Part shown: piece after piece, positions 1 to 26,268 of the stretch | How positions within the stretch are numbered: the first letter of the stretch is position 1 | Layout: each line of letters starts with the position of its first letter | IMG/VR virus record: IMGVR_UViG_3300037184_000166 | Span: 1-26,268 of that record | Direction: 5' to 3' (one strand) | DNA length: 26,268 bases | Source of the DNA: a virus | Program-made: the position numbers and the translations under genes | The notes under the pieces: model-generated | The model's database searches: none | What the model was told of the DNA's origin: nothing | The model's input: only the letters and a program-made list of their open reading frames with translations

Positions 1-133
1 GGTTGACCGTGCCTCCAGGAGAGCCTCCACCCGCAGTTCCCGGGCGTGGTCCCTGGTAGACGGGCGCGAACGGTGGAATCAGCTGGGCCACGGCCGCCGC
101 CGGCAGGAGAAGGAAGAGAAGGAGCTTTTTCAT
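1..133 (-). CDS. Secreted protein, N-terminal fragment (runs off window)
   Basis: This gene is cut by the left edge; only the first 44 codons are visible. Translation from the ATG at 133 gives a textbook Sec signal peptide: MKK, a leucine-rich core (residues 4-10), then PAAAVA followed by Q17, a good signal peptidase I site after A16. The mature part starts with a Pro/Gly-rich stretch (IPPFAPVYQGPRPG, then a GGGSPGG linker), as in low-complexity spacers ahead of a binding domain. The start lies 2 bases after the stop of the preceding gene, so the two are probably translated together. It is the fourth gene in a row with an export-type leader. Function of the missing body is unknown; a secreted adhesin or fibre-associated protein is the guess from context. 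Confidence 0.72.
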   Translation of the reverse strand, partial: MKKLLLFLLLPAAAVAQLIPPFAPVYQGPRPGTAGGGSPGGTVN

Positions 134-135
134 CG

Positions 136-552
136 TCAGTTTGTGGGGAAGCTGGTCCCCTGGCTCGGTGTTGAGACACACAGGACGGTGGTTCCTGTGG
201 CCATGATGGCCCTGATCGGTATGCCGGTGAAGAAGGGGCCGTAAAGGGTCACGGACTGCCCTGCAGCCAGCCAGTACCCCCTTCCTGTGGCGCCTGTGGC
301 AGGATCGGTGCCAGTCACCCCCGTACGCTGGTCCTTGACCAAGGATCCGCCGTCCAGGCCGAGGTTGACTTGGTTGCCACCATTGGCGGTGGCTGCATTG
401 CTGATGGTGATCCAGGTGTCGCCAGGGCCCGCGGCAGCAATCGTGCTTACGGTCGAGGTGCTGAGGGAGGAGACGAGATGGTTGGCTGCGAGCGCCATCG
501 CCGGCAGTGCCAGCACCAGCGCGAAAGAGATGAGACGATGGATTGTTTTCAT
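136..552 (-). CDS. Secreted small beta-rich protein of the fibre cassette
   Basis: A 138-residue protein with a clear Sec signal peptide: MKTIHR, a hydrophobic core at residues 8-20, and an A-L-A site near residue 22 (PAMALA then ANH). An upstream in-frame start at 582 exists, but it would bury the leader and overlap the preceding gene, so ATG at 552 is preferred; it sits 4 bases after that gene's stop. The mature part is rich in Thr, Ser, Gly and Ala with alternating hydrophobics (TWITISN, LAAGQSVTLYGPF, AIMATGTTVLCVS), which suggests one small beta-sandwich or a virion-surface-type domain. I do not recognise a named family. Its position after the tail fibre and LamG genes suggests a role at the host surface or on the virion exterior, but that is inference. 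Confidence 0.75.
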   Translation of the reverse strand: MKTIHRLISFALVLALPAMALAANHLVSSLSTSTVSTIAAAGPGDTWITISNAATANGGNQVNLGLDGGSLVKDQRTGVTGTDPATGATGRGYWLAAGQSVTLYGPFFTGIPIRAIMATGTTVLCVSTPSQGTSFPTN

Positions 553-556
553 GAGA

Positions 557-1288
557 TTACAGGGTGTGAGTGTCGCCAGCAAAAATCTTGATCAGCGCCA
601 AGGAGCCAGTGAAGTAATAATAGTCGAATCCTTGGCCGATGGTCATAATCTGCGAAGCGAAAGCTGTGGGGGTAGTCCAAGTCGAACCCGCGACAGTTGC
701 AATGTCACCTCCGGAAGTTACGTACTGCTGGATCGTTCCGTTGGTGTTATTGAACACGATCTGCATATGCAGCCAGACCGAATTGGTAAGTGTTGTCGAG
801 GAGTAGTAGAGCGACGCGTGCCCCGCTGAGTCTCCTATGTAGGTATACAGCCTGCTCGCGCCAGATGGCACGTAGACAAGAAACGAGGCCGTAAGCGAAG
901 GGGTTATGAATAGGTAGGACGGCTGGGACCAATCCGAACAGAATGCCCAGAAATCAAGGGTGATGATCTGGTTGGAAGAATAGGACACGCCAGGTACTGA
1001 ATGGACGTACTGACTCACCCCGTCGAATTGAAGGTATGCTGATGCTCCTCCAGGCGGCGCCGAGGACGACCACATGCCAGTCGAGGAAATCTTGCCTGTG
1101 TTGCCGTTGCCCGAGGAGTCGTACAGGGTCGTGGAAAGCTGCGAATCGGCCATCTCCCAGTCAAGTAGGGCTGTGGCTGGAGGTGGTGCCGCAGGGGCAG
1201 GGTAGCTCCCAAAAACCTGTTGGGACCCACTGCCGAATAGTGGAGAGCTCCAGACTAGGACTAGAAGAAGTGAAAGGACGCGCTTCAT
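557..1288 (-). CDS. Secreted LamG / concanavalin A-like lectin-domain protein
   Basis: A 243-residue protein. Residues 1-19 form a signal peptide (MKR, then a leucine/valine core), followed by a Pro/Ala-rich linker (residues 28-40). Residues about 41-236 show LamG/ConA-like lectin hallmarks in order: an opening LLDWEM strand, YDSSGNGNTG (56-65), LQFDGVSQYV (86-95), TLDFWAFC (110-117), WLHMQIVFNNTNGTIQQYV (172-190) and a closing GSLALIKIF (228-236). This fold usually binds glycans or protein surfaces. The ATG overlaps the stop of the tail fibre gene (TGATG), so translation is probably coupled. Codon use looks more AT-rich than in the head genes. Likely an adhesin or fibre accessory; whether it joins the virion or is released by the infected cell is not visible. 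Fold assignment is fairly sure, role is not. Confidence 0.85.
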   Translation of the reverse strand: MKRVLSLLLVLVWSSPLFGSGSQQVFGSYPAPAAPPPATALLDWEMADSQLSTTLYDSSGNGNTGKISSTGMWSSSAPPGGASAYLQFDGVSQYVHSVPGVSYSSNQIITLDFWAFCSDWSQPSYLFITPSLTASFLVYVPSGASRLYTYIGDSAGHASLYYSSTTLTNSVWLHMQIVFNNTNGTIQQYVTSGGDIATVAGSTWTTPTAFASQIMTIGQGFDYYYFTGSLALIKIFAGDTHTL

Positions 1289-2877
1289 CAGTTCAAATTA
1301 ACCTGCCAGACACCTGGCGTGTTTGCCACCTTCACGATCGTGGCCGCATGGCTGACGGGGATTGTGAACGAGGCCACCACCCCCACACCGCCGTTCTCGT
1401 ACATAGTGTCAGAGCCGCTCATACCCACCGTGATCGTTCCGCCGCCAGTGGGAAGGTTGCTCAAGGTGATCGGCGTGCCGACCGCGTAGTTCACAGGATT
1501 CGTGCCGCCAGTATAGCTTGGAATCGTCCAGGCGACCGCGCCGCCAGATTGATGCGTCACCATGCCGTTCGCGTCACCTGCCACCAGTTCGTAGCTTCCC
1601 GTCTGTGGGTTTGGGGTGAGAACTTGGCTCGCGATGGCAGTCAGCACGTACTGGGTTGTGGCGATCTGCGTCGTGTTCGTGCCAGCCGCCGCGGTTGGGG
1701 CTAATGGGGTGCCGGCCAAGGTCGGAGATGTGGCCTTGACGTAGCTGCCTGTCCCGACGTTCGCCACAGACACCAGGGTCGTACTGCCGTTAAATTCCGC
1801 GGTGTAGGTCGAAGTGATCGATCCCGACGTGGAGATATTTCCAGCTCCGGCTGGTGTCTTCCAAGTCCCGTCGCCGCACCAGAAGGTACTCGACCCCGCA
1901 CCAGTTCCAGAAGCCAGGTTCCCGACAGGAAGGTTGCCTGTCACACCACCATTTCCGCTCGCTGCAAGATTGATGGCCCCAATCGTCACTGTGCCAGACG
2001 TGTTCAGCAGCGGCAAGGTGAACGAGTAGCTCGTACCCGGGACTGTCGCCCAAGTCCCGTTGCCGCACCAGTAATGGCTCGAGTCGGCATTGGTGCCGCT
2101 GTTCAGGTTCGCAACTGGCAGGTTCCCAGTCACCCCCCCGCTCCCTGATGCCGCAAGGTTGATCGCGTTGACCGAGAGTGTTCCGGACCCAGTGATGGGG
2201 TTGTTCGGGCTCGCTGAAAGGCCTCCGCCGGCAAGGATCGACGTTACTGTCCCAAGCCCGCCTCCACCCCCGGTGAATGGGTAGAACTTCAACGCCCCGG
2301 TGGCATCAAATCCAACAACCATCGACTCGCGGGCAGTCTTGGAAAGCAGACCGCTCGTAATCTCATCTCCCGGGAACTGCAGACTGTTCTGCGTCTGCAG
2401 GTTGATCTGCTGCAGGGCCATGGTGATTTTGTCCAGTGCCTGGCCGATCATCAATGGAGTCAAGGGGCCCGTGTTCGTGAACGTGGTCGTCTGGGTGAGA
2501 GGCACCGCCCGAGATATTGTGATGATGTCGTTTATTTGGACCGAGTTCGGGCCGCCGGGGATTGTTGTGATCGAGCCCGTGCTGCCATTCCCACCCGTAA
2601 CCGAGTAGTCCTCACCAACCGAAAGCGAGACAGGCGGGCTGGACTTGCTGTCCAAGACCAGCAGATCGCCGGCACCCTGGAAGACGAATGGCACTGGCAG
2701 GGTCTGCGGACCCGTGGTCAACGTGTACTGCACCCAGGTCGTAGTACTCGAGACCGTGGCCCGCGCCATGTTGGCCAAGGCGGCGCCCACCAGTATCGTG
2801 ATCGAGAACCAGTTCAGCGCCTTTCTGAATGGATCGTCCGAAGGTATCGGACCCCTTAGCCAAGTGGACAGTTTCAT
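1288..2877 (-). CDS. Tail fibre protein with T7-type attachment domain and N-terminal hydrophobic leader
   Basis: A 529-residue fibre. ATG 2877 is chosen over an upstream start at 2946 because a strong AGGAGG lies 9 bases before it. Residues about 21-40 are hydrophobic (WFSITILVGAALANMARA), resembling a signal peptide or membrane anchor. Residues about 45-160 resemble the T7 tail-fibre N-terminal domain that docks on the tail: a WVQYTLTTG start, LPVPFVFQGAGDLLV, VGEDYSV, ITISRAVPLTQ and ALDKITMALQQI. Then come a Gly-rich hinge (202-208), two 44-residue repeats beginning AINLAASG (238-281 and 301-344), the common fibre motif TSPTLAG...PTA...IATTQYV (385-411) and a beta-rich end. The gene follows the ATP-grasp gene by 13 bases. 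It is the main receptor-binding candidate. The leader ahead of a docking domain is odd. Confidence 0.88.
   Translation of the reverse strand: MKLSTWLRGPIPSDDPFRKALNWFSITILVGAALANMARATVSSTTTWVQYTLTTGPQTLPVPFVFQGAGDLLVLDSKSSPPVSLSVGEDYSVTGGNGSTGSITTIPGGPNSVQINDIITISRAVPLTQTTTFTNTGPLTPLMIGQALDKITMALQQINLQTQNSLQFPGDEITSGLLSKTARESMVVGFDATGALKFYPFTGGGGGLGTVTSILAGGGLSASPNNPITGSGTLSVNAINLAASGSGGVTGNLPVANLNSGTNADSSHYWCGNGTWATVPGTSYSFTLPLLNTSGTVTIGAINLAASGNGGVTGNLPVGNLASGTGAGSSTFWCGDGTWKTPAGAGNISTSGSITSTYTAEFNGSTTLVSVANVGTGSYVKATSPTLAGTPLAPTAAAGTNTTQIATTQYVLTAIASQVLTPNPQTGSYELVAGDANGMVTHQSGGAVAWTIPSYTGGTNPVNYAVGTPITLSNLPTGGGTITVGMSGSDTMYENGGVGVVASFTIPVSHAATIVKVANTPGVWQVNLN
1846..2166 (-). repeat. Two-copy 44-residue repeat inside the tail fibre gene
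   Basis: Two diverged copies of a 132-base unit at 2166-2035 and 1977-1846, separated by 57 bases. Each encodes AINLAASG(S/N)GGVTGNLPV(A/G)NL, then a SGT spacer, and ends in WCG(N/D)GTW. The copies keep the Cys-Gly and Trp positions, so they are shaft or knob modules rather than random similarity. Duplication of such units is a common way for fibres to change length. Confidence 0.85.
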
Positions 2878-2890
2878 CGGGGAATGCCTC

Positions 2891-4180
2891 CTATGCCTTT
2901 GTTTTCTCTTTATCAAGTTTGAAAGGAGATAGACCCAATTCCTCAAGCTTCTGAATCTCCTCGTTTGCCTGCTCCGCAGAGCCCAAGTTGAATTTGATCT
3001 GATAGCCTGAGATGGAATCGCCCGCCTCTTGGGCGTGATCCATCGCGGCCTGAAGAGTGTCGCCCCAGCCGACCACCGCGCCGCACTCGCTCATGTTCTC
3101 GGACTGCGGCACCACGTATCGCTGTCCGTCCACAAGGACCGAGTTGAAGAGCTTGATCTGGTTGGCGTATTTAAGAGGGTAGGTGACGGGCTGCCAATTC
3201 GACTCGGCCCACGCAGACTTCAGCACCACCTCCACACCCCACTTCCCGGCCGGCACCGGCTCCTTCAGGATGCCATCGGCGCCGAACCACATGATCTCGC
3301 TCAGGTTCGTGAAGAGCTCTTGCCAGAGTTCCGAGGGAGGGCATGGCGCGCGGATCGTCGCATCGACCATGTAAGGGACGTGATCCTCGCCGACGCGAAT
3401 CTCGTTCGACACAGAACCGCGGCATCCGTACTTAGCGAAGAGAGGGGCAAAGGCTTCGTTCCAGCGCCGCAGCGGCTCCGGAATGTCCATCCAGTCAACC
3501 ATGCCCCCGCAATAGCTCGCGTCCTTAATTTCGATTCCGAAGACCGTGTTCCTCGGATACCGGCCATCGATGCAATACGTGTCGACGCCAACCTCTCGCC
3601 GGTCTGGCAGGTCGTCCTCAACAATGAACTCGAGCGTCTCCTTGAAGCCGCCAAGCGTGTGTGCAAGCTCGACCAGCTTCGGCTCGATCTCGTCGTAGTT
3701 GCGGGCAAAAAAAGTTTCCGTGACGCCCCTCCAGCGATCGATCTTGACGTGCTGATCTTTGTGGGCCTTCAGGTGCGCATGAAGCTGGGTCATTCCATGT
3801 AACACTTTCCAGGGCTGCAGCGGCAGCTTCAACTCGGCCATGCGCTCCTTGCAGAGTTCCCGGTACAGCTCGAGTTCCTCGGCGTTCCGGCAGCCCCACA
3901 CCCGCTTCCCCCTCTTCTCAAGCTCGATCTGCATCGCGGCATGTCCCAAGTCTGGGAAAACGAAAAGATCCACCTTGTCAAAATGAGGTCCAAACACGCC
4001 ATCCACCAGCTCTACGTTCGGCAGCCCGTATCCAACCCGACCCTCGTTCATAGTCGGGAAGGACCCGGCGTATGGTACGAACAGGTATACCCGCCCGAAG
4101 TCGCGGCCGAGCCTCTCCGCCAAACTCACGAAGAGCGGATTGCAGCAGACGAAGGCGGTCTTGGATTTAAGGTCGATCAC
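2891..4180 (-). CDS. ATP-grasp family protein (PurD-like ligase fold)
   Basis: I take the GTG at 4180, which overlaps the preceding stop as GTGA, giving 429 residues; a TTG at 4216 is the longer alternative. The N-terminus has a nucleotide-type alpha/beta region (TAFVCCNPLFVSLAERL, VYLFVPYAG, KVDLFVFPDLGHA). The middle and end resemble ATP-grasp ligases of the phosphoribosylamine-glycine ligase type: a lysine and hydrophobic strand near residues 125-135, FIVEDDL (185-191), EVGVDTYCIDG (196-206), YMVDATIRAPCPP (270-282), and a PurD-like C-terminal VVGWGDTLQAAMDHA (369-383). ATP-grasp enzymes join a carboxylate to an amine or similar group through an acyl-phosphate. The substrate is unknown. 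It lies between virion genes and fibres, not among nucleotide genes, which argues against a purine role. A peptide or surface modification role is only a guess. Confidence 0.72.
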   Translation of the reverse strand: MIDLKSKTAFVCCNPLFVSLAERLGRDFGRVYLFVPYAGSFPTMNEGRVGYGLPNVELVDGVFGPHFDKVDLFVFPDLGHAAMQIELEKRGKRVWGCRNAEELELYRELCKERMAELKLPLQPWKVLHGMTQLHAHLKAHKDQHVKIDRWRGVTETFFARNYDEIEPKLVELAHTLGGFKETLEFIVEDDLPDRREVGVDTYCIDGRYPRNTVFGIEIKDASYCGGMVDWMDIPEPLRRWNEAFAPLFAKYGCRGSVSNEIRVGEDHVPYMVDATIRAPCPPSELWQELFTNLSEIMWFGADGILKEPVPAGKWGVEVVLKSAWAESNWQPVTYPLKYANQIKLFNSVLVDGQRYVVPQSENMSECGAVVGWGDTLQAAMDHAQEAGDSISGYQIKFNLGSAEQANEEIQKLEELGLSPFKLDKEKTKA

Positions 4181-4554
4181 GGCAGGCTGTAGATTTTCTT
4201 CTCGTACTTCGCCCAATCAACACCCAGCTCAGCAGACATCAGTGCCTCGATGTTCGTGGCAAAGAAGTGCTCCCGGCGGTACGGCGCCCTTGGATCGTCG
4301 CCGGGCTCATCGTCGTTCCCAGGCTTGCGTGCTTGTTCAAAAGCGATGTCGAAGGCATCCACTGACTCTTGGGAAATCTTCCGATGCCTGCAGAGGTTCA
4401 CCTCGACGAGCTCATGGAGGGCAACGAGGAGTTCGTAGCGCCAGTTGTTCATATCCGACACCTTGATGTGCAGGACGCCCTTGCTGGTGAACCAATCGCC
4501 AACGGTGGGGTATCGCTGCCTCGAGTGGGGTGTGGTCTCTATTACGATTTTCAT
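4177..4554 (-). CDS. Small conserved phage protein with HExxE motif (possible metal binding)
   Basis: A 125-residue protein whose ATG overlaps the stop of the giant virion gene (ATGA), so the two are probably coupled. It opens with MKIVIETTPHSRQRYPTVGDW, followed by a short beta region ending WRYELLVALHELVE. H47, E48 and E51, with H57 (CRH) six residues on, resemble a metal-binding helix such as those in small zinc proteases. A second conserved-looking stretch is DDPRAPYRREHFFAT (86-100), with H96. A classical HExxH is absent. From memory, proteins with this layout recur in uncultivated podovirus genomes, without a known function. A protease or structural metalloprotein is possible, but neither is shown. 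It is probably a late gene, since it shares the virion operon. Confidence 0.72.
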   Translation of the reverse strand: MKIVIETTPHSRQRYPTVGDWFTSKGVLHIKVSDMNNWRYELLVALHELVEVNLCRHRKISQESVDAFDIAFEQARKPGNDDEPGDDPRAPYRREHFFATNIEALMSAELGVDWAKYEKKIYSLP

Positions 4555-7500
4555 TTTCTAAAGCTTGTGTTGATGTCGCGCATCTTCGCGTACGGGTCGC
4601 GGGCCTCCACGGGCGTGTACTCCCTCGGCTCCCAGTCAATTCCATTCTCCTTGGCATACCGCCACAGAAGCTGCTGGAAGCGGCCGTACATCGCCTCGCG
4701 GAGGAACTGGGCCGTCAGCACCTGGTGGAGAGCCTTGGGCATTGGCTCGCCGGCTTCCTTCGGTTCGAGGCTCTGCAGGAAGGCGGCGTCCGATTCCTCG
4801 CTCTTTGTCCATGTGTGGAGCAGGCTCTCCCGCGCGCTCAGCTGCATGCGGTCAAGGGTCTTCGACTTGATCTCCCCGTCATCCTTCAGCTCGAGGCCGC
4901 GCTGTTCAGCATCCGCCTTGGCCTTCCCGGCGATCTCTTTCTGGACCGAGGAGAAATGATCCTTGATCGCCGCATAGGCCTTCTCGTCGTCGTTGTCCTC
5001 GAGGGCGTATCGGATCGGCTGGAACTCGCTGACGGGGTAGGTGCCGGTATCGTCCTTCGCTTTGAATGGGTCGTCCTTGGGCAGATTCTGGTTCCACTCA
5101 TGGGCCAGTTTGTAGGCGTCCGCGATCGGCGACCCGCGGCGGATCTGTATGCCCTGGCTCAACAGGAACTGCTGGAAGTTCGAAACGTCCATGTACCGCT
5201 GAGTCGGGCTGATGTCCTTCAACGCCTCCGAGACGCCCGGCATCCACTTCATCGAGATCGGCACCCAGGACACCGCTGCGTCCCGCAGGGCGTCTGTCGG
5301 GGTGATCCGCTCTCCGCGCCAGTTCATTCCCACAGTCATGTTCAGACCGTGCGAGACCATTGGTGAAAGCCGCGATACCAGGTACGGGTTTACCCCGCCC
5401 CGGTGGAAGGTCTGGTTCAACCCCTCCCAAAAGTTGAGCAGGTCCTGCGCCTCGTTGCGGATCCCGTAGTAGCGCCCGTTGTGGTAGACCATGAACGGCT
5501 CCTCCCAGTGCGGATCCTTGTCATCGTTGATAGCCATGTTCACGGCGCGGCTGACGAGCATCAGGGATCCCGCAGTCACCGCCAGACCGTACAGCGGCTG
5601 ACGGCCAGCCTTCGCCCCGGTCAGACCCACCACCTGCTGCCCGTAGTTGCGGATCGTCGCCTCGAGGAAGTCCGGGGCCAAGGCAGCGAACCGAATGAAA
5701 TGCTGAATCGTCGGATTGCGGTTCAGGAGGGCGTAGTTCTGGTGGCCGAACCTCGCGTTCACCTGCTCGCCAGTCAAGGCACTGATCTGCCTAGGAGTTA
5801 TTTTCCCCGCCTTCAACTCTTCAGAAAACAGCCTCATGTTCCGTTCGCGGAGCGCCTTGTAGGCCGTGAACTTCAGCCGCGGCAGGAAGACCTCGAAGGC
5901 CATGTGCTGCATCGCCTGGTTGGCGTCTGCCACCCTGCGCAGGTACGGAACCTTGCCGAGAATATCGATTCCGCTCCGGTGACCGCCTGTGCCCTCTGTG
6001 AACTCAGACCTTGAGGCCTGTGGTGAGATGAGCATCAAGCCGCCGTTCTTCACGGCCTCCTGCACCTCGGGATCCGCGGGATCGATCTTGTCCAGGTTGA
6101 AGACGTTGATGCCATAGGTGAATCCGCGCTTCGCCAAGTGGACCGGGTGGAACATCGAGAAGGCGCCCAGCATCGTGTTCGCGACGAACCTGTTCGACTG
6201 ATCGACGAACTTCGCGGCACGCTTTGAAATCTGCACCAAGTCACTGCCCGGGGCATCGTACCAGTCTTGGATGGCGGATCTACCGAGAATGTTGCGCAGC
6301 CAGCCGGCCACCTCAGGGTGGAAAACCATTCCGCGGAGCGACGGATGCTTTACCTCCTCGTAGGTGGTCTCGACATCCTCCGGCGGCTTCCCGTGGTAGG
6401 CAAGACGGTCGCCGTTCGAGCCGCGCTCGATCATCATCCTGCTGAGCATCCTGCGGGTGTTCACCGCCTTCGACAGTGCGTTGTTATACACAGTCATGAT
6501 CTCAAGGATGTCCTTCGTGGCAGCCTTGAAGCCTGCCTGCTCAAGCTCCCCAAAGTTCGGGAACGTCCGCGCCTGAGAGTACTTGAAATTCTTGTCCAGC
6601 TTGCCGTAGTACGCGCTCGCCACGCCGCCGCCTACGTACGGACGGTCGATGATCTGGGTGATGTAGTCCTCGCGGAACCGCTTCTCGTCCATCACTCCTT
6701 CCTTCACCGCCCGCTTGAACTGGTCGTCGAACCACTTCCCAATAACCTCCGTCATCGCCTTCTGCTCGTCTGTGAGCTTCAGGGCGGCCTGGTATCCCTT
6801 GCGAAGAGTGGTGTCAGTCGTCTGCTTCAGGCGGGCCCGGATCGTCGCCTCATCGTATCCTGCATCCCTCCAGTTCGACATGCCAATGCGGGTCAGGCGA
6901 TCAGGGGCCACCCTCTTCACCTCGCGGCCCACTGGCATGAACTTCAGTTGGTCTATCTGGATCCCGCCCACCCAGTCCGAAACGATCTGCCTGAAGCCTC
7001 CATCCATCGGCACGTTCCTCACGTAGTTGGCGGCGCGGCTGAGGCTGTCCCAGATCCCTCGCCCAACGTCCGCGGCCTGGCTCATCATCGGCGATGCGGC
7101 GCCCAGGTTCTTGGCCTCCTCAAGGGCCTGCTTCTCCACGCTGGTCTCCTTCCCATCCGGCAGGCCCTTGGTGGCACGGAGCAGGGCGTCGTTCGGATCA
7201 TCGGTCGCAGCCTGCTGGTCCTGGCGGAGCTTGGCGGCCATCTCCGGGGTGTTGGTCTTAGCCGACGCCTCGCCGGCCGGGTTCTGCAGGACGAATCCGT
7301 GGTCATCCTTCGTCACCTTCATATCCTCGGCCTGTGGATCCGCCTGTCGCTGCAACTCCTGTGCGCCGGCATAGAGCTGCCCGAGGATCGGCCGCATGCT
7401 CTCGCCGGTCTCGGATTCAAATTGCGCGACAGCCGCGGCGAATGACTTTCCGCCACGGATCATCATGTCCGCCACCACGATCGTGGCATCGAGGATGTCT

Positions 7501-12576: not shown

Positions 12577-13158
12577 TCAGTTCCCGGTTGGGGCGCTCAA
12601 GTCCGTGTTCGCTGGGTCGTACCCGCCTCCGGCAGGAGCCGGGGCTCCCCCGCCTCCGCCTTTGAACAGGCCTTGGTTGTAGGCACCCCCCACCTCGGTC
12701 GCCACCTTGCTAGCTCCGTTCAGAACGTCCGCGATGCCCTCCATGTGATACTGATCGGCCTGCGCTGCCCCTTCCGCAACGCCGGCAGCGGCCGCCGAGG
12801 CAAGGTTCTCCTCCTTCGCCTGCGACTCCGCCCACATGTTCTGCGCGCGCATCTCGGTCTTGCCGATGGTTGCCGCCTGCACCGCCAAGGCTGACCCCTT
12901 GTTCGCGACGATCCCGGCCCCAGCGTAGGCTGCTGCCTGCCTCGAGACGTAGGTTGCAGCATCCTTCCGCATGTTCTGGATGTTGACGATCGTGTCCTTG
13001 TCGATCTGGTCCGACTGGGCAGCATCGACCTTCGCGTTGTAGGCCGCGGTCTGTGTCGCCGTGTTCGCCGCCGCATCCGAGGCCTTCTTGGCCATGCCGC
13101 TGGACGCCACCGTTGCGCCAACGGAGATCGCAAGTGCTGCTATTGGGATGACGGGCAT
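12577..13158 (-). CDS. Internal virion protein, gp14-like
   Basis: A 193-residue protein with AAGGAG about 10 bases before the ATG. The gene overlaps the end of the preceding one by 19 bases. Residues 2-22 are hydrophobic (IPIAALAISVGATVASSGMA). A long Ala/Gln-rich helix follows (residues 23-160), then a Gly/Pro-rich tail (GGGGGAPAPAGGG). This is the usual profile of T7 gp14-type proteins: a hydrophobic start, then an alanine-rich coiled region with VNIQNMRKDA and a segment of the GIVANKGSALAVQ kind. T7 gp14 forms the outer-membrane pore of the ejection channel, and the same role is inferred here from profile and gene order. Confidence 0.78.
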   Translation of the reverse strand: MPVIPIAALAISVGATVASSGMAKKASDAAANTATQTAAYNAKVDAAQSDQIDKDTIVNIQNMRKDAATYVSRQAAAYAGAGIVANKGSALAVQAATIGKTEMRAQNMWAESQAKEENLASAAAAGVAEGAAQADQYHMEGIADVLNGASKVATEVGGAYNQGLFKGGGGGAPAPAGGGYDPANTDLSAPTGN

Positions 13159-13604
13159 GGGAGTGCCGCTCCTTCAGACGGCGGCCAGTTCTCTGCGTTT
13201 ATCAGCGGCTTCGCGTAAGTCTTGTGGCCTGGGTCAGGTGTCGAGGTGGCGTAACCCATCTTCACCATCGCCCGCTCTTCCCAGCTTCCTGGACGAACGA
13301 ACGACAGGACCGCGAGGCATCCAGCGTCCTTGGCGATTGCCTCGAGCTTCTCGTACAGTCCCTTCACCGCCTCGACGATGTCCCGCGAGAAGGCGCACTG
13401 CGGGTTCGTCGTCGTCAGTTCGATGACCCCGATCTTGTTTCGGTGAAAGTACAGGAAGCTCATCGCCATGTCCACGCCGGCCGAGTAGGCCACCCATCCG
13501 TCAGGAAGGGCCACCATCGGGAATCCGAGCGCGTTGTGCCGGTCCCACCAGCTCTTCAGCTTTGGGTAGTCGACCTCGGGTTCGAATGGCCGGTATTTGA
13601 TCAT
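13140..13604 (-). CDS. GNAT-fold-like phage protein in gp13 position
   Basis: A 154-residue protein starting at ATG 13604, which overlaps the nozzle gene stop (ATGA). An in-frame start at 13787 would lie inside the nozzle gene and adds no sensible sequence. Visible pattern: MIKYRPFEPEVDYPKLKSWW, then ALPDGWVAYSAGVDMAMSFLY (32-52), IGVIELTTTNPQ (58-69), a helix DIVEAVKGLYEKLEAIAKDAGC (75-96), a strand LAVLSFV and a final MVKMGYA (113-119). This strand-helix order and the late GY motif resemble GNAT acetyltransferases. Related proteins occur between tail nozzle and gp14-like genes in many podoviruses, where T7 has gp13. Whether it acetylates anything or only keeps the fold as a virion assembly factor is unknown. 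Confidence 0.7.
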   Translation of the reverse strand: MIKYRPFEPEVDYPKLKSWWDRHNALGFPMVALPDGWVAYSAGVDMAMSFLYFHRNKIGVIELTTTNPQCAFSRDIVEAVKGLYEKLEAIAKDAGCLAVLSFVRPGSWEERAMVKMGYATSTPDPGHKTYAKPLINAENWPPSEGAALPCPSSQ

Positions 13605-25966: not shown

Positions 25967-26268
25967 TCAATTATTCGGGTTGCTCCGGTTGTTTGTGCCG
26001 CTGTCGCTCACTCCAATCGTCCCGGCGGTCGTGAAGTTCTTCAAGCAGTTCCAATTTGATCCTGAGTCGATTGTGATCCCGGCGTAGGGGTAGCTCCATG
26101 TCCAGTCTGAGAGTGAGTTGGCGAGGGAGTTTCCGGTGATGTAGATCCCGGTCGTGATGCCTCCATAGGGTGCGATGCCGTTGAAGTTGCAGTACTGGCA
26201 GTCGTTCAAGAGAAGGTAGTAGGCATAGCCGCCGGGAATGTAGGAGTCGTCCGCAGCGATCATCGAGT
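25967..26268 (-). CDS. Beta-helix-like protein, C-terminal fragment (runs off window)
   Basis: The reading frame is open to the right edge, so only the last 99 or so residues are seen; the ATG at 26263 need not be the true start. Short repeating turns rich in Asn, Gly, Tyr and Thr (NDCQYCNFNG, TTGIYITGNSLANS, AGITIDSGSNWNCLKNFTTAGTIG) resemble the last coils of a right-handed parallel beta-helix, as in tail spikes and pectate-lyase-like proteins. The stop is 3 bases before the terminase GTG. A fibre or spike next to terminase would fit, as would a depolymerase, but the domain is incomplete here. Confidence 0.6.
   Translation of the reverse strand, partial: SMIAADDSYIPGGYAYYLLLNDCQYCNFNGIAPYGGITTGIYITGNSLANSLSDWTWSYPYAGITIDSGSNWNCLKNFTTAGTIGVSDSGTNNRSNPNN

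Follow-up and report, generated by a model that had tools for sequence, protein, structure and literature searches.

The fibre protein encoded in the window, as we call the whole stretch of DNA analysed here (a 26,268-base IMG/VR virus record), has a 40-residue leader in front of its T7/epsilon15-type docking domain, and this leader would be a cleavable Sec signal peptide. The leader is part of a module-wide pattern and not a single-gene oddity. As read from the sequences, this pattern, which had escaped an earlier note on the same DNA, is lineage-wide and spans the whole receptor-binding module, the predicted cleavage site falls at the N-terminus of leaderless homologues, and relatives with a split fibre carry the signal on its distal protein. 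On balance, we regard it as probable that Sec exports the receptor-binding module, that signal peptidase processes it, and that it joins particles after the inner membrane has been breached.

All structural genes of the window lie on the minus strand, in the order terminase, portal, major capsid protein, tail proteins (PHROG_394 and PHROG_376), internal virion proteins, and fibre, with three more genes to the left edge (Table 1). Directly upstream of the docking gene, a 441-aa protein (2891-4216, minus strand), which contains AFVCCNPLFVSLAERLGRDFGRVYL, is kept in place in the relatives G002, G006, G045, G032, and L082; it is ATP-grasp-like by eye only and has no Pfam match at 0.1. Amid the tail genes, a small protein (13140-13604, minus strand; MIKYRPFEPEVDYPKLKSWWDRHNALGFPMVALPDGWVAYSAG) is GNAT-like by eye, and similar ORFs occupy the same place in G002 and G006. 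At the right edge, adjoining the terminase, there is a C-terminal fragment, apparently of a beta-helix tailspike (25967-26266, minus strand), in the position of the 505-aa spike of G002. G002 (L059) has an additional small signal-peptide protein (MKKFSSFLFAAALIVFAASVHA; 27246-27770, minus strand), which lies outside the fibre module, next to tailspike and terminase.

Table 1. Features of the fibre gene and of the genes that follow it in the window.
Feature	Position	Strand	Basis or remark
Fibre gene, 529 aa	1288..2877	-	Its stop and the start of the following gene overlap (TGATG)
LamG/concanavalin-like lectin protein, predicted signal peptide MKRVLSLLLVLVWSSPLFGSG	557..1288	-	PF13385, E 4.8e-6, slightly below the curated cut-off; signal score
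Small protein, 138 aa, predicted signal peptide MKTIHRLISFALVLALPAMALA	136..552	-	Homologues in G002, G004, G045
Truncated gene at the window edge, predicted signal peptide MKKLLLFLLLPAAAVAQ	2..133	-	Signal score
Shine-Dalgarno AGGAGG of the fibre gene	2887..2892	-	9 nt before the ATG
40-residue leader MKLSTWLRGPIPSDDPFRKALNWFSITILVGAALANMARA, predicted Sec signal peptide	2758..2877	-	Long n-region, hydrophobic core, A-X-A cleavage motif
T7/epsilon15-type fibre docking domain, residues 41-169	2371..2757	-	PHROG_1640 profile and fold alignment

The AGGAGG that the earlier note took as support for the fibre start does favour the ATG at 2877-2875: the later in-frame starts ahead of the docking domain (GTG 2790, TTG 2778, and ATG 2769) each match a Shine-Dalgarno sequence at four bases at most, and ATG 2769 has none. 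A later start codon was rejected on these grounds and because homologues keep the leader. The leader has the marks of a substrate of Sec and signal peptidase I, namely a positive n-region, an uncharged hydrophobic core, and small-X-small at -3/-1. The n-region is long, with about 20 residues that include DD. The hydrophobic segment, placed by the note at about residues 21-40 with the ending MARA, does run into ARA, followed by T, but its extent is about 21-37. With a signal-peptide scorer of our own making, written for this analysis, the leader scores 13.0, a value equalled by 0.35% of 2,000 shuffles of its own letters, and it stands above chance because the same alignment column holds a leader in eight other records. 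In an AlphaFold2 model of residues 1-172, the leader contains a separate helix (16-33), and pLDDT is below 50 at 35-42. Several other accounts of the leader were rejected: a lipoprotein (signal peptidase II) signal, since the window leader has no Cys and thus no lipobox Cys at +1; a Tat signal peptide, since RR occurs neither in this leader nor in the other eight; and an assembly artefact, since the leader is present in nine records from different metagenomes.

The docking domain is identified by PHROG_1640 (tail protein; E 7.9e-13, window residues 41-169 against profile positions 2-128), while the Pfam model PF03906 has no match to the fibre protein. VIA-align gives Z values of 10.1 with LME-1, 9.9 with Carin1, and a further 9.6 and 8.5, the last with T7 gp17, where window residues 45-125 superpose on residues 5-79. 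In these alignments, residues 41 and 45 of the window fibre match residue 2 of the Carin1 fibre and residue 5 of gp17, respectively. In the model, residues 51-120 have block pLDDT above 90 and belong to a beta domain, and residues 141-163 form a helix. Because residue 41 pairs with residue 2 of solved domains, the leader amounts to 40 extra residues, and not 44 as the note had it, ahead of a domain that is N-terminal in other proteins; the profile match and the structure alignment agree on this point. In the primary product, the docking domain is therefore preceded by the leader and would come first only after cleavage. The note's central reading, a hydrophobic leader ahead of a T7-type docking domain, is thus borne out by profile match, fold alignment, and leader anatomy. 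Searches with direct peptide patterns and tblastn gave no relatives for either the fibre or the 2145-aa protein.

Relatives were found through terminase, docking-domain, and major capsid protein queries. A signal peptide directly precedes the docking domain in eight records of one lineage and in one record outside it. The leader-bearing fibres of the window lineage are those of G002 (MKFLKAFILVVSLALSVLPAARA, followed by TVSS), G004 (MKVFRLFTLVLALALAIPVLA), G045 (MKHFFRVALLFLLPALGLA), G044 (MKSFLKVAILLCLPFLARA), G039 (MKVFRYLFILVLLIVRLNA), G031 and G038 (both MKVLRYLIPLVVFVVQACA), and G026 (MKVFRYILPLIVLSIQACA); the one outside is that of G012 (MRNRFAAFAAVLALSCPALA). The leaders of the relatives are short, 19-23 residues. 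A comparison of starts in homologues, as the note had proposed, shows that it is the leader, with its MK... start, and not a later start, that is conserved. In an alignment of 33 docking domains, all nine leaders have Ala at -1 in one and the same column, with a small residue at -3 in most, and 22 of the 24 leaderless homologues have their start Met in it (the other two start one column later). Cleavage there would therefore restore the ordinary N-terminus. Likewise, residue 2 of the epsilon15 tailspike aligns with the residue that directly follows the G002 leader, and all annotated phage records in which the start position was checked (8/8) are leaderless, the best matches beginning right after the leader.

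The lineage forms one well-supported clade of 15, eight with and seven without the leader, in a tree built from the mature domains, where G012 lies elsewhere. Fused leaderless fibres also occur within the lineage (the long proteins of G032 and L196). The tree requires at least three changes of the leader overall, of which the starred branches force at least two, gain and loss not being separable. One leaderless relative sits in an Armatimonadetes MAG, and a search of 291 Armatimonadetes genomes gave no match beyond that MAG. Lipobox proteins behind the fibre in relatives suggest a diderm host. A need for disulfides as the reason for export was rejected, as cysteine counts are inconsistent.

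The signal extends to the genes that follow the fibre. All four genes of the receptor module in the window, the fibre and the three downstream, have a positive signal-peptide score; of the remaining 18 genes just one has, a TTG-started ORF of doubtful start, and the tail nozzle genes have no signal. Genes after the fibre also carry signals in G002, G004, and G045, where the homologues of the small protein all have signal peptides. No relatives of this small, putatively exported protein were found outside the lineage.

A second architecture is found in G006, G050, G057, G059, L082, L200/L201, and L202, where the docking domain is encoded apart, as a short leaderless protein of about 217-248 aa, and the signal peptide is carried by the downstream fibre-like protein. 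In the fused, leader-bearing fibres, the regions that follow the docking domain have their homologues in these separate, signal-bearing proteins: G044 208-435 matches G057_4 64-292 (65%), G026 575-743 matches G006_SP3 (59%), G045 255-383 matches L202_SP2 (59%), and the C-termini of G039 and G031 are homologous to L082_SP2. Long docking proteins have the leader in 8 of 10 cases and short ones in none of 7 (Fisher p 0.0019, uncorrected for shared descent). This swap between architectures is seen directly in the sequences. Since the signal is on the distal fibre in split relatives and before the docking domain in fused ones, the tag follows the receptor-binding fibre. G003 is an exception, having a short docking protein followed by a gene that also lacks a signal, with no signal in the module. 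In the same record, whose fibre is leaderless, a lipoprotein-like ORF (L025, about 4819-5295, plus strand) with a GSMEP motif reminiscent of signal peptidase I/S26 adjoins a lipobox protein.

The fibre of G004 (L030, 4983-6767) has a signal peptide, the docking domain, a Peptidase_S74 chaperone (residues 479-530, E 3.9e-10), a hydrophobic helix at 570-588, and then FRFNRKSS. To judge from this layout, the N-terminal signal and the C-terminal helix with its positive tail would suit a protein of the periplasm held to the inner membrane by a tether. It is tempting to propose that S74-type self-cleavage frees the fibre from this tether.

How might such a module be used? During infection, the fibre and its lectin-like and small partner proteins would be exported across the inner membrane, the leader acting as a cleavable Sec signal peptide. 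Signal peptidase I would cut after Ala40 and leave the docking domain with the N-terminus of its ordinary cytoplasmic homologues, and the fibre would fold and trimerise outside the cytoplasm. The periplasmic location of the docking domain, raised in the note, is a prediction. The tail nozzle, lacking a signal, would be built in the cytoplasm, and the fibres would dock no earlier than the breach of the inner membrane by holin and lysis. Selection would act on export of the distal receptor-binding fibre: in a one-protein fibre, the signal would have to stand before the docking domain, and in a two-protein fibre, the adaptor would stay in the cytoplasm while the distal fibre carries the signal.

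We infer export, cleavage, presence in the virion, and late docking from the features described above. The accepted view is that tailed-phage virions are finished in the cytoplasm. As the docking partner on the tail would be cytoplasmic, use of the exported fibre in virions requires assembly after the membrane breach. It has long been established that P22 tailspikes join spikeless heads in vitro, and late docking is therefore feasible. The wider proposal of two-compartment assembly in a lineage of tailed, podovirus-like phages, with heads, nozzle, and sometimes the docking adaptor in the cytoplasm and Sec-exported, matured fibres outside, the two being joined at lysis, has in our view about an even chance of being right. 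Export would not be indispensable, given the leaderless fused fibres of G032 and L196 and the signal-less module of G003.

An alternative explanation, which we consider unlikely, is that the fibres and lectins are exported to act as free proteins, binding or trimming receptors and surface polysaccharide and thereby blocking superinfection or freeing progeny from debris. The LamG lectin in the module, the beta-helix/pectate-lyase-like body of the leader-bearing G012 protein, and the exported proteins of the split architectures, which have no docking domain, would all suit such a role. However, in nine records it is the docking domain itself that bears the export signal, with fold and canonical N-terminus kept, which a receptor blocker would not need, and only one docking gene was found per record.

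It is less likely still that the leader is an uncleaved membrane anchor, retaining trimers of the fibre, or tails, at the inner membrane while assembly proceeds. The predicted helicity of the hydrophobic core and the long, charged n-region of the window leader are in concordance with an anchor; the invariant -1 Ala and mostly small -3 residue, placed exactly at the domain boundary, and the length of the relatives' leaders, typical of cleaved signals, point instead to processing. Finally, the leader might be untranslated in the functional product, the fibre starting internally at ATG 2769, which in the window is in frame before ARA. This is very improbable, and internal initiation is nearly excluded, as this ATG lacks a Shine-Dalgarno sequence, the leader ATG of G026 is the sole start codon upstream of its docking domain, and G002, G004, and G031 have no start with a proper ribosome site at the boundary between leader and domain.

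With Sec signals on receptor-binding proteins across a lineage, positioned such that cleavage gives back the usual docking N-terminus, either the fibres of these phages would reach their mature form outside the cytoplasm and be added to particles at lysis or later, or the phages would export soluble receptor binders. Virion assembly across compartments then becomes testable with ordinary fusions and N-terminal proteomics. There is also a caution here, in that a signal peptide is no ground for excluding a gene from the phage structural proteins.

The docking domain and its fold were already known, and for the two-compartment arrangement no precedent was found in the literature searched. That search, with most subscription papers outside its reach, yielded no account of tailed-phage fibres with signal peptides, and no signal peptide is reported for its phage in the first verrucophage paper (PMC4642752). 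The window fibre is like T7 gp17 (PF03906/PHROG_1640) in fold and profile, but gp17 and the 24 leaderless homologues start at the domain, to which the window fibre adds its Sec-type leader. The closest characterised docking domains, in both sequence and fold, are those of the epsilon15 tailspike and the Cobetia phage Carin1 tailspikes (Dpo31/Dpo36), whose genes, unlike that of the window, begin leaderless at the docking domain. With endosialidase-type Peptidase_S74 fibres, G004 shares the S74 chaperone, to which it adds the N-terminal signal and the hydrophobic helix after S74, whereas the window fibre has no S74 match. Virion proteins do pass through Sec in the inoviruses, where pIII and pVIII have their signal cleaved before they join the particle. 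This export route is analogous to the one proposed here, with no homology between these proteins and the window fibre; inovirus particles are assembled in the membrane, while the window is that of a tailed phage, with cytoplasmic head and nozzle.
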